From positions 248,001 to 312,000 of the forward strand of contig NZ_CAKLBU010000001.1 in assembly GCF_920984735.1 (NCBI RefSeq): a stretch of 64,000 nucleotides of DNA. The letters are read 5' to 3'. Made by a program: the position numbers and the translations under genes. This DNA comes from Pedobacter sp. Leaf250 (GTDB lineage: Bacteria > Bacteroidota > Bacteroidia > Sphingobacteriales > Sphingobacteriaceae). The notes below the pieces were generated by a model, which made no database searches, was not told where the DNA came from, and saw only the letters and a program-made list of their open reading frames with translations. Positions 42,552-45,305 of this stretch are shown here, in pieces (within the stretch, counting starts at the first letter, position 1; each line of letters opens with the position of its first letter).

Positions 42552-42749
42552 TTATTTTTTTACAACGGTAGTATCAGTTTTAACAACTGTATCAGCTACA
42601 GTAGTGTCAGTTTTAACAGTTGTATCAGCAGTGATAGTTGTATCAGCGCCTAAAGTATCAGTACCTTCACCTTTTTTTTCTGAAGTACAAGCTGCAACTG
42701 ATAAAGATAAAGCGATAGCTAAAAAGCCTAATTTGAATGCATTTTTCAT
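42552..42749 (-). CDS. small Thr/Asp-rich lipoprotein, tandem copy A
   Basis: A 65-residue lipoprotein: basic N-terminus, hydrophobic core and lipobox SVAAC with Cys21. The mature 45 residues are low complexity, built from DTTxxx units (DTTITADTTVKTDTTVADT), with little hydrophobicity, so they are probably disordered and exposed at the membrane surface. It differs from copy B by Thr22 in place of Asn. A sigma-type promoter (42787-42815) shared with copies B and C and with the ECF sigma gene lies upstream. Function unknown. Confidence 0.85.
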   Translation of the reverse strand: MKNAFKLGFLAIALSLSVAACTSEKKGEGTDTLGADTTITADTTVKTDTTVADTVVKTDTTVVKK

Positions 42750-42786: not shown

Positions 42787-42815
42787 TTTATACTTAAAAC
42801 AGGAAAAGGTAACCC
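42787..42815 (-). promoter_or_regulatory. ECF-type promoter of lipoprotein copy A
   Basis: On the minus strand GGGTTAC (42809-42815), a 14-base spacer and AGTATAAA (42787-42794). Same layout as the four other sites of this locus; the -10 is the weakest match. Leader about 30 nt. Confidence 0.6.
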
Positions 42816-42889: not shown

Positions 42890-43087
42890 TTATTTTTTTA
42901 CAACAGTAGTATCAGTTTTAACAACTGTATCAGCTACAGTAGTATCAGTTTTAACAGTAGTATCAGCAGTGATAGTAGTATCAGCACCTAAAGTATCAGT
43001 ACCTTCGCCTTTTTTTTCTGAGTTACAAGCAGCAACTGATAAAGATAAAGCGATAGCTAAAAAGCCTAATTTGAATGCATTTTTCAT
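42890..43087 (-). CDS. small Thr/Asp-rich lipoprotein, tandem copy B
   Basis: A 65-residue lipoprotein, identical to copy A except for Asn instead of Thr after the lipobox Cys21. Signal peptide, lipobox SVAAC and the DTT-repeat tail are unchanged. It has its own ECF-type promoter and its own terminator, so it can be expressed independently. The opposite strand holds an ORF of similar length that is only a shadow of the repeats. Confidence 0.85.
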   Translation of the reverse strand: MKNAFKLGFLAIALSLSVAACNSEKKGEGTDTLGADTTITADTTVKTDTTVADTVVKTDTTVVKK

Positions 43088-43122: not shown

Positions 43123-43151
43123 TTAATACAGTAAATAAAAAAAGGTAACCC
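43123..43151 (-). promoter_or_regulatory. ECF-type promoter of lipoprotein copy B
   Basis: On the minus strand GGGTTAC (43145-43151), 14-base spacer, TGTATTAA (43123-43130). Confidence 0.65.
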
Positions 43152-43172
43152 GCAAAATTGAAAAAAAAATAA

Positions 43173-43206
43173 AAAAAGCTTCAAACCATAAGGAATGAAG
43201 CTTTTT
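43173..43206 (-). terminator. terminator of lipoprotein copy C
   Basis: An 11-bp perfect stem AAAAAGCTTCA (43173-43183) with TGAAGCTTTTT (43196-43206), 12-base loop. Confidence 0.8.
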
Positions 43207-43227
43207 ATATTTTTATTAGACTATTAA

Positions 43228-43425
43228 CTAGTGTTTTACAACAGTAGTATCAGTTTTAACAACTGTATCAGCAACAGTAGTATCAGCTTTAACTGTAGTA
43301 TCAGCAGTGATTGTAGTATCAGCACCTAAAGTATCTGTACCTTCAGCTTTTTTCTCTGAATTACAAGCAACAACTGATAAAGATAAAGCGATAGCTAAAA
43401 AGCCTAATTTGAATGCATTTTTCAT
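43228..43425 (-). CDS. small Thr/Asp-rich lipoprotein, tandem copy C
   Basis: A 65-residue lipoprotein, the most divergent of the three: lipobox SVVAC (Cys21), EKKAEG for EKKGEG, VKADTT for VKTDTT and a terminal His instead of Lys. It is nearest to the divergent sigma gene. It has the shared ECF-type promoter and in addition a housekeeping-like TACCTTTG box (43468-43475) inside the spacer, so it may have basal expression that the other copies lack. Confidence 0.85.
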   Translation of the reverse strand: MKNAFKLGFLAIALSLSVVACNSEKKAEGTDTLGADTTITADTTVKADTTVADTVVKTDTTVVKH

Positions 43426-43458
43426 TTTTGAATTTTTTTTAAGTAATTAATTTTCTTG

Positions 43459-43487
43459 TTAATGCCGCAAAGGTAAAAAGGTAACCC
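43459..43487 (-). promoter_or_regulatory. dual promoter of lipoprotein copy C
   Basis: On the minus strand GGGTTAC (43481-43487), 14-base spacer, GGCATTAA (43459-43466). The spacer also contains TACCTTTG (43468-43475), a TAnnTTTG box. Confidence 0.6.
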
Positions 43488-43528
43488 AACAATTTTTAAA
43501 AAAATGAAAATATTTTTTCATGCATATT

Positions 43529-43558
43529 GGGTTACCCTAAATCTTATCAACGTATTAA
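43529..43558 (+). promoter_or_regulatory. distal ECF-type promoter P1 of the sigma gene
   Basis: GGGTTAC (43529-43535), 15-base spacer, CGTATTAA (43551-43558). It would give a leader of about 65 nt before the GTG start at 43630. Confidence 0.6.
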
Positions 43559-43597
43559 CCAATGATAGTTGCTATAAATATTTTTTTATCTAATATT

Positions 43598-43626
43598 GGG
43601 TTACTATTTTTAGAAAAACGTATTAA
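43598..43626 (+). promoter_or_regulatory. proximal ECF-type promoter P2 of the sigma gene
   Basis: GGGTTAC (43598-43604), 14-base spacer, CGTATTAA (43619-43626). Transcription would begin at about the GTG start codon itself (43630), so its transcript would be leaderless or would need another start. Confidence 0.6.
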
Positions 43627-43629
43627 CGG

Positions 43630-44196
43630 GTGAATAACAGTTTAAAGAGTTCAGTTCCAACAGATAGAGAAGTTATTTTAGGTATTCTAAATAACTCTGA
43701 AGATACACTTAACAAGTTATACAAAGCGTATTATGTGATGGTTTTGCAATTTATCCTCAATAATAATGGTGATGAAGATGATGCAAAAGATGTTTATCAG
43801 GAAGCCATTATCATATTGTATAATAAAATTAAGGAAGGGAACTTTGAATTAAGCAGTAAACTCAAAACATATATTTATTCAGTTTGCAGGCGAATATGGC
43901 TTAAGAAACTAAGTCAGAATAGTAAGAAAGCCGGTAACATTACTGATTATGAAGATGTGTTGGTTGTGGAGGAAGATGTAGAAACGCATGAGGAAAAAGA
44001 TGCAGCTTTTGTTAAAATGCAATCGGCCCTCGAGCATTTAGGAGAGCCCTGTAAAACTATTATTCAGGATTTTTATATCCATAATTTATCCATGCAGGAT
44101 ATTTGCGAAAAGTTTGGTTATACCAATACTGATAATGCAAAAACACAAAAGTATAAATGCCTGCAAAGGTTAAAGAAAATATTTTTTCAACCATAA
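43630..44196 (+). CDS. ECF-type RNA polymerase sigma-70 factor
   Basis: A 188-residue sigma factor with region 2 (LYKAYYVMVLQFIL...DAKDVYQEAIIILYNKI, residues about 33-75) and region 4 with a helix-turn-helix (LSMQDICEKFGYTNTDNAKTQKYKCLQRLKK, residues 155-185). Regions 1.1 and 3 are absent, as in ECF factors. The start is GTG; the next in-frame ATG lies inside region 2. Its own promoter region has two copies of the element found before the three lipoprotein genes, suggesting autoregulation. The anti-sigma/protease gene follows after 8 bases. Confidence 0.9.
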   Translation: MNNSLKSSVPTDREVILGILNNSEDTLNKLYKAYYVMVLQFILNNNGDEDDAKDVYQEAIIILYNKIKEGNFELSSKLKTYIYSVCRRIWLKKLSQNSKKAGNITDYEDVLVVEEDVETHEEKDAAFVKMQSALEHLGEPCKTIIQDFYIHNLSMQDICEKFGYTNTDNAKTQKYKCLQRLKKIFFQP

Positions 44197-44204
44197 TAAT
44201 TGAA

Positions 44205-45305
44205 ATGAGAAACGATTTGGAGTTAGATGCAATTATTGAAGATTATCTTTTAGGTAAACTTAATCCGCAGGAAACGGAAGCTTTTGAAACACTTCGCCGC
44301 AATGATGCGGCTGTTGATCATAAAGTTGTTTCGCATAAATTCTTTTTAGAATCGATGGAAACATTTGCTGCTCAATTAAGATTAAAAGAGCAATTAAATA
44401 ATATCCATGCAGAAATTGATGTAGAGGGTTTAGCTACAGCTTTAAGACCACATCCATCAAAAGTGATTCAGTTATGGAGAAAACATAAATCCGCCATTGC
44501 AGTTGCTGCATCATTTTTAGTATTGTCTTTAGTGTCTGTTTATTCTATTCAACATAACAGTAAGCAAAAAGAACAACTTGTTTTGCTGAGTAATCAAGTT
44601 AATAAAGCAATCAAAACGCAGAATAACCTAATTAGGAAAATTAATAATACCACTAACGCAGCTGGCAAGCCCGCTATTCAAAACAGCTTTGGTGGTACAG
44701 GTTTTGCGATATCTACGAATGGTTATATTTTAACCAATTTACATGTGATTAATGGTGCTGATTCTTTGTATGTTCAAAATAACAAAGGCGAATCATTCAA
44801 GGTAAAATCGATTTATACTGATTCGCAAAATGATATCGCTATTCTTAAGATAAGTGATAAAAATTTTAATCATCTTTCATCAATTCCATATTCTATCAAA
44901 AAGACAACCAGTAGTATAGGTGAAACGGTTTACACCTTGGGTTATCCTAAAGATGATGCTGTTTTGGGTGAGGGTTACGTAAGTTCTAAAAATGGTTTTA
45001 TCGGTGATACTACTCAATATCAAGTTTCCATTCCAGTAAATCCTGGTAATAGTGGAGGCCCGTTATTAGATAATAATGGAAATTTAGTGGGGATTATCAG
45101 TGGTAAGCCTGATCAGACTGAAGGTGCTGCTTTTGCTATTAAATCAAAATACATTTTAGAGGCCATGAGAGCTATTCCTCAAGATTCTTTAGGATCAAAT
45201 AAGCTATCATCAAGCAATAAGAAAAGTTTGCTTTCCGGTTTAAAACGTACCAAGCAAATTGAGAAATTGCAAGACTATGTATTTATGATTAAAGTTTATA
45301 ATTAA
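44205..45305 (+). CDS. membrane protein fusing an anti-sigma-like N-terminus to a periplasmic trypsin-like serine protease
   Basis: A 366-residue single-pass protein. Residues 1-95 are cytoplasmic and begin LDAIIEDYLLGKLNPQETEA, the form of many Bacteroidota anti-sigma N-termini. A TM helix covers about 98-118. A short coiled segment leads to an S1C/trypsin-like domain with GTGFAISTNGYILTNLHVI (His180), NDIAILKI (Asp210) and NPGNSGGPLL (Ser283); the triad is complete. No PDZ domain follows; only about 80 residues remain. ATG 44205 lies 8 bases after the sigma stop. It probably holds the sigma factor at the membrane and processes or senses envelope damage; this is inference. Confidence 0.85.
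   Translation: MRNDLELDAIIEDYLLGKLNPQETEAFETLRRNDAAVDHKVVSHKFFLESMETFAAQLRLKEQLNNIHAEIDVEGLATALRPHPSKVIQLWRKHKSAIAVAASFLVLSLVSVYSIQHNSKQKEQLVLLSNQVNKAIKTQNNLIRKINNTTNAAGKPAIQNSFGGTGFAISTNGYILTNLHVINGADSLYVQNNKGESFKVKSIYTDSQNDIAILKISDKNFNHLSSIPYSIKKTTSSIGETVYTLGYPKDDAVLGEGYVSSKNGFIGDTTQYQVSIPVNPGNSGGPLLDNNGNLVGIISGKPDQTEGAAFAIKSKYILEAMRAIPQDSLGSNKLSSSNKKSLLSGLKRTKQIEKLQDYVFMIKVYN

Follow-up and report, generated by a model that had tools for sequence, protein, structure and literature searches.

The locus

The window analysed here is the whole 64,000-nucleotide stretch of Pedobacter sp. Leaf250 DNA, and all positions refer to it. Within it lies a gene for an ECF sigma factor, followed on the same strand, 8 nt after the sigma stop codon, by a gene whose predicted product joins an anti-sigma-like domain, a transmembrane (TM) helix and a serine protease in one chain; three tandem genes for small lipoproteins run divergently from the sigma gene. 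These genes and the predicted promoter sites that accompany them are:

42552..42749, minus strand: small lipoprotein gene copy 3, 65 aa (open reading frame and lipobox)
42787..42815, minus strand: promoter motif of lipoprotein copy 3, GTATAAA variant (one-mismatch search)
42890..43087, minus strand: small lipoprotein gene copy 2, 65 aa (open reading frame and lipobox)
43123..43151, minus strand: promoter motif of lipoprotein copy 2 (motif search)
43228..43425, minus strand: small lipoprotein gene copy 1, 65 aa, lipobox VVAC (open reading frame and lipobox)
43459..43487, minus strand: promoter motif of lipoprotein copy 1, GCATTAA variant (motif search)
43529..43558, plus strand: distal sigma promoter motif, a second copy with N16 spacing (motif search)
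43598..43626, plus strand: proximal sigma promoter GGGTTAC-N15-GTATTAA, ending 3 nt before the GTG (motif search)
43630..44196, plus strand: ECF sigma factor gene, 188 aa, GTG start (TIGR02937; Sigma70_r2; same family directly 5' of the protease gene in loci L001-L048)
44205..45305, plus strand: anti-sigma/TM/protease fusion gene, 366 aa (profile searches, homologue-shared start, AF2)

The initial annotation had read the last two genes in much this way, as an ECF sigma factor followed by anti-sigma-like, TM and protease parts in a single chain, and matches to TIGR02937, to Trypsin_2 and to an RskA-like profile bear it out. Beyond that annotation lie the lipoprotein genes on the opposite strand, the predicted promoter that they share with the sigma gene and, within the fusion, a putative coiled-coil linker and a conserved tail at the C-terminus.

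Conservation of the gene pair

The sigma and fusion genes form a conserved, obligate pair and not a local oddity. The genome survey that the initial annotation had proposed gives, for 151 genomes of the window's family, 136 with both genes, 14 with neither, one with a protease fragment alone and none with the sigma gene alone (counts read by hand, with protease genes split at contig ends in G079 and G149 taken as present). The fusion search was positive in 137 of these genomes, including those two, the other 14 giving at best an ordinary HtrA match; the sigma gene was absent from the same 14 and from G134, where the protease match is the fragment only. Co-occurrence of the two genes over the 151 genomes has a Fisher value of 7.6e-19 with kinship ignored, which overstates the number of independent losses because the 14 negatives include whole genera as well as genomes of low completeness.

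Another family (f2) has a match at 1.8e-35 or better in 186 of 195 genomes, and a phylum-wide sample has a match below 1e-55 in 21 of 296, all within four families; the remaining matches in that sample are to the protease domain only, or to ordinary HtrA proteins. Full-length matches include proteins of Pedobacter, Mucilaginibacter, Sphingobacterium, Chitinophaga, Flavihumibacter, Hymenobacter and Parachryseolinea. The same sigma gene lies directly 5' of the fusion, on the same strand, in 48 of 48 loci (L001-L048), and nine other matches (L049-L057) comprise the protease domain only, with no such sigma gene adjoining. An 80-locus set contained 51 pairs, two of them with an incomplete sigma reading (L174 and L189), and 27 of the remaining loci match just the protease domain of ordinary HtrA proteins. 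Altogether, 294 loci yielded 265 readable pairs, 242 of them full length and 229 distinct; eight of the 294 have the protease without the sigma gene (L049-L054, together with L186 and L193, contig edge). The fusion starts between -20 and +30 nt from the sigma stop codon in 217 of the 229 distinct pairs. The possibility of a mobile or horizontally acquired system was rejected: no plasmid record covers 80% of the fusion, and its presence is family-wide.

The sigma factor and its predicted promoter

The product of 43630-44196 matches TIGR02937 (sigma70-ECF) over residues 26-183 with 79.7 bits, against a cut-off of 42.9, and Pfam Sigma70_r2 with 34.6 bits (cut-off 24). Region 4 scores 11.9 bits by Pfam, under its cut-off of 25.7, and residues ~120-192 of the AF2 model, together with the rows of the structure comparison (VIA), align with sigma region 4 structures. 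Judged by its ECF profile score and by its possession of regions 2 and 4 alone, the protein is classed as an ECF sigma factor. Its median pairwise identity over the 229 distinct pairs is 0.50.

A further trait of ECF factors, an autoregulated promoter with a conserved -35/-10 pair, is represented by a predicted ECF-type promoter, GGGTTAC-N15/16-GTATTAA; 206 of 229 loci carry the exact motif at most 90 nt 5' of the sigma start codon. Between the end of the motif and that codon lie 2-3 nt in 100 of these 206 loci and 9-13 nt in 92, a -10-to-start distance so short that the sigma message is probably leaderless; the start codon is GTG in 197 of 229.

Within the window, GGTTACN{12,19}ATTAA occurs four times, always inside 43123-43626 (expected 0.44; 0 of 100 shuffles reach four): two sites precede the sigma gene and one each precedes two of the lipoprotein genes, the third of which is preceded by a one-mismatch copy. 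The exact motif occurs four times in the window's genome, three of them at this locus, and 0 times in the reversed control. When 81 genomes of the family were sampled, the motif was found in all 69 that have the system (197 sites, control 29) and in three of the 12 that do not (5 sites, control 3); for family f2 it was found in 53 of 60 genomes.

Lipoproteins and other predicted targets

Each of the three lipoprotein genes has its own promoter motif and encodes a lipobox and Asp/Thr repeats, the products being identical to one another, pairwise, at 61 to 64 residues with the stop left aside. Against the PG1828 family profile (NF050142, cut-off 50 bits) they score 33.2-34.9 bits and so fall below the threshold for that family; the copy of a relative (L022) scores 58.8 bits, above it. 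The tails of such small lipoproteins gave the impression, uncounted, of often ending in K or H, recalling peptidoglycan-linked lipoproteins. By a loose test, a divergent open reading frame with a lipobox accompanies 44 of the first 48 loci, and one was found at 39 of 51 loci of a second set, being absent mainly from Sphingobacterium.

The association extends beyond the locus. Among seven genomes for which the sites listed at the sigma locus are the sigma gene's own alone, an off-locus GGTTACCTTT site precedes a small lipoprotein gene in all seven; no lipoprotein copy was found 5' of the sigma gene in the three of them examined there (1531, 353 and 378 nt). Twenty off-locus sites in the family divide into ten before a lipoprotein gene, two before a DUF4294 gene and eight before nothing convincing. 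Within the window's family, four genomes have a DUF4294 gene after the motif (L138, L140, L396 and L405), and DUF4349 lipoprotein genes follow it at L399, where the site lies inside a long open frame, and at L406. For f2, the 20 chosen sites comprise six before AMPK1_CBM-like genes (L377, L379, L382, L386, L387 and L390), one before a lipoprotein gene, two before the sigma gene itself and eleven before nothing convincing; the two proteins scanned against AMPK1_CBM score 34.6 bits (L386) and 26.6 bits (L382), the cut-off being 26.8. That the motif stands in f2 before genes for small, glycogen-binding-like cytoplasmic proteins is unexpected for an envelope sigma factor.

Allowing one mismatch in the window's genome gives 13 matches, four of them at this locus, against 13 in the reversed control; one of the nine off-locus sites (L419) precedes a gene for a DUF4349-like lipoprotein that is under the Pfam cut-off and similar to that at L406. 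A wide regulon in this genome was rejected on these equal counts, several of the off-locus sites lying inside long open frames. A DUF2459 gene behind the fourth exact match (L061, N16 spacing) was set aside as uncertain, as it was not recovered again. The data support a module that, besides the two paired genes, is predicted to include the divergent lipoprotein genes and the shared promoter.

Domain organization of the fusion protein

The longest open reading frame of the fusion gene reaches back to an in-frame ATG at 44157, inside the sigma gene, but homologues favour the ATG at 44205, the start common to them. Numbered from the latter, the protein has these parts:

44205..44483, plus strand: anti-sigma-like domain, residues 1-93, helices 4-15, 21-33, 35-70 and 73-79 (hhalign, NF052375, AF2)
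44487..44555, plus strand: TM helix, residues 95-117 (hydrophobic run and AF2 model)
44568..44651, plus strand: periplasmic helix with heptad pattern, putative coiled coil, residues 122-149 (AF2 at low pLDDT, heptad)
44679..45179, plus strand: HtrA-type serine protease domain, residues 159-325 (profiles, structure comparison, triad)
44742-44744, plus strand: catalytic H180 (triad)
44832-44834, plus strand: catalytic D210 (triad)
45051-45053, plus strand: catalytic S283 (triad)
45180..45302, plus strand: conserved C-terminal tail, residues 326-366, with helix 348-358 and strand 359-365 (conservation, AF2)

Trypsin_2 matches the protein with 90.9 bits (cut-off 27.6), and DegP/DegS-type profiles score far under their full-length cut-offs because the protease domain alone matches. 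The domain has the chymotrypsin-like make-up and the His-Asp-Ser triad of HtrA/DegS proteases, with H180, D210 and S283 exactly where the initial annotation had placed them. That annotation had also reported the lack of a PDZ domain, and no PDZ family appears among the Pfam matches at E ≤ 0.01 of the 51 homologues scanned (51 of 51); where HtrA proteins carry their C-terminal PDZ domain, the fusion has its helix-and-strand tail.

The AF2 model (51 sequences; mean pLDDT 84.9, pTM 0.58) ends the protease domain at ~322, is confident for helix 348-358 and strand 359-365, and is of low confidence for helix 122-149; by structure comparison, residues 154-328 match the folds of HtrA1, MucD and DegS (VIA Z ~20). 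There is a single TM helix, ~95-117 by hydrophobic run and model, and within it A101-A102 is invariant in 229 of 229 homologues. The helix after it is hydrophobic at 125, 128, 132, 135, 142 and 146, with mostly Gln at 139, which amounts to a heptad pattern; from this pattern and the HtrA fold we infer that the fusion trimerises. The periplasmic linker shows no conserved cleavage site in the alignment of homologues.

The three catalytic residues, together with G281 and G284, are unchanged in 229 of 229 distinct full-length pairs. That the triad has persisted while median pairwise identity is 0.49 in the protease, 0.31 in the N-terminal domain and 0.21 in the linker (0.39 in the tail) argues for retained catalysis, and a dead protease was rejected on the ground of the intact triad.

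The N-terminal domain

The peptide by which the initial annotation had recognized the anti-sigma-like part, LDAIIEDYLLGKLNPQE, corresponds to residues 7-23. Pfam gives no anti-sigma match to this part of the fusion in 51 homologues at E ≤ 0.01. The NCBIfam anti-sigma factor model NF052375 matches 14 of the 51 at E ≤ 0.01, with a best value of 7.2e-9, and gives the window's fusion an E of 0.0012 and 18.9 bits, under the cut-off of 100. RskA-like anti-sigma factors were gathered with this model from the same and related genomes, and 11 were aligned; profile-profile comparison (hhalign) of 41 fusion N-termini with these 11 yields a probability of 92.7 and an E of 4.1e-7 over residues 11-61 (48 columns). 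By these comparisons the N-terminal domain appears homologous to known anti-sigma domains, and the AF2 model gives it a helical, anti-sigma-like layout.

How the domain might engage the sigma factor was approached through a co-fold of one chain from a Sphingobacterium locus, L153, read through in frame from sigma across the linker into N-terminus and TM (pTM 0.71, pLDDT 78.5). Its sigma2 and sigma4 domains lie at an rmsd of 9.7-17 Å from anti-sigma-bound sigma factors and of 16-25 Å from RNA-polymerase-bound ones; their modelled placement is suggestive only, leaning towards the anti-sigma-bound form and matching neither form well. A Foldseek search with the co-fold had zero matches at E ≤ 0.001. 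Structure-search rows for the full fusion model span 154-328, all protease, and those for the co-fold span sigma; the fold of the N-terminal domain lies outside the rows of either search, and no known fold is claimed for it. Ridge covariation between sigma and fusion (229 pairs, Neff 174) puts 38 of the top 100 couplings in the N-terminal domain, against 26% expected, and 44 in the protease, the strongest single pair being in the C-terminal tail; it was dropped as support for a sigma/N-terminus contact, the N-terminal domain not being clearly separated from the protease domain.

A proposed mechanism and its alternatives

The interpretation that we favour, with moderate confidence, is that of an autoregulated envelope-signalling module in which the fusion protease cuts its own or a neighbour's linker and an M50 protease then frees the sigma factor. 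The data support the pairing of the genes and their obligate co-occurrence, the domain make-up with its intact triad, the promoter and the lipoprotein regulon; the intervening steps would run as follows. The fusion's N-terminal domain would sequester the sigma factor, in inactive form, at the inner membrane, while the periplasmic HtrA-type part would trimerise through its fold and the coiled coil after the TM helix. An envelope signal, presumably sensed by the protease together with the tail that replaces PDZ, would switch the protease on, and it would then cut the flexible periplasmic linker (~118-158), either in its own chain or in an adjacent one. The TM stub would next be cut by the site-2 protease, of which the window's genome encodes one, an M50 protein. 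Freed sigma would transcribe its own operon and the small outer lipoprotein genes from GGGTTAC-N15/16-GTATTAA promoters and, in some lineages, DUF4294, DUF4349 or AMPK1_CBM genes as well. Cleavage by the chain's own protease followed by a site-2 cut would be the simplest model because there is one M50 protease and because of the analogy to RseA/DegS/RseP.

Since the linker lacks a conserved cut site and its cleavage is postulated, there is room for a non-proteolytic switch. A less likely alternative is that the chain is a true anti-sigma factor from which sigma is released by a conformational change passing through the coiled coil and TM helix; the protease would then have a separate periplasmic job, such as degrading misfolded or surplus lipoprotein, and be fused solely so that its load is sensed. 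An unbroken, helix-rich path from N-terminal domain through TM helix to coiled coil would suit such a switch, as would A101-A102, whose invariance is as compatible with helix packing as with intramembrane cleavage, and an independent role for the protease is suggested by lipoprotein-anchored sister proteases (L049, L051-L053) that share the tail and have no anti-sigma domain. Release of this kind would, however, depart from what generally holds for TM anti-sigma factors such as RseA, MucA and RsiW; the intact triad does not discriminate, being equally expected either way. The same triad, retained with G281 and G284 in all 229 pairs, tells against a different and improbable proposal, that the HtrA domain is catalytically competent but serves as a regulatory peptide sensor while another site-1 protease cuts the chain, a proposal favoured by the presence in the genome of at least one other HtrA-like protein above the Trypsin_2 cut-off (C15, a 523-aa frame). 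Most improbable of all is that the N-terminal domain is a mere cytoplasmic segment anchored in the membrane and the sigma factor an operon partner that it does not contact: the missing Pfam match and the weak covariation would fit this, but the RskA-like profile match, the 14 of 51 homologues found by NF052375 and the strict co-occurrence and co-loss with this very sigma factor oppose it.

To the favoured self-cleaving module a rather doubtful extension may be added, in which it acts as a self-contained sensor of lipoprotein homeostasis, the trimer's PDZ-less protease reading the lipoproteins made under its own sigma factor as ligand, inhibitor or substrate. A newly exported or mis-sorted lipoprotein would then set sigma release by self-cleavage, closing a feedback loop; if true, this would be a one-chain alternative to RseA/DegS with the product as its own signal.

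In most known cases of regulated anti-sigma proteolysis, the anti-sigma factor and its site-1 protease are two distinct proteins. The one-chain version, with its predicted promoter and targets, has been kept in Pedobacter, Mucilaginibacter, Sphingobacterium, Chitinophaga and Hymenobacter relatives, and it links an ECF sigma factor to a family of abundant-looking small Bacteroidota lipoproteins of unknown function. The system is small enough that sensing, cutting and output should be separable by simple mutations (S283A, a tail deletion, a linker swap).

Comparison with known systems

The initial annotation did not recognize the arrangement as a described signalling system, and this agrees with the open-access literature, where no title or abstract describing a one-chain anti-sigma/HtrA arrangement was found; the 2021 re-classification of ECF sigma factors, outside that search, may mention it. 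Other single chains combine comparable functions. BlaR1 and MecR1 unite sensor and protease, with a protease or mechanism and a topology unrelated to those of the fusion; FoxR/PupR and RsgI unite an anti-sigma factor with its own cleavage, by autoproteolytic mechanisms and in topologies that differ from the fusion's.

Closer relatives of the two halves occur separately. RskA-like anti-sigma factors of the NF052375 type, from the same genomes, appear by profile-profile comparison to share the N-terminal domain; unlike the fusion, they have a C-terminal domain of their own (~200 aa) and no protease. Other Bacteroidota have PDZ-less, HtrA-like proteases that are lipoproteins (L049, L051-L053), with a protease domain 38-44% identical over the matched stretch and a similar C-terminal ending; they differ from the fusion in having a lipobox N-terminus, no anti-sigma domain and no such sigma gene within the ~3.5 kb examined. 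These lipobox-anchored sisters are a possible source of the fused protease.

The systems nearest in outline are sigmaE-RseA-DegS-RseP of E. coli and AlgU-MucA-AlgW of P. aeruginosa, whose anti-sigma factors and site-1 proteases are separate proteins. Common to them and to the Pedobacter module are an ECF sigma factor, a membrane anti-sigma factor (predicted here), an HtrA-type periplasmic protease and a genome-encoded M50 site-2 protease. In contrast to RseA/DegS and MucA/AlgW, anti-sigma domain and protease in Pedobacter form one chain that has a conserved tail and no PDZ domain; and, unlike those of sigmaE and AlgU, the predicted regulon consists of the sigma operon itself and small lipoproteins.
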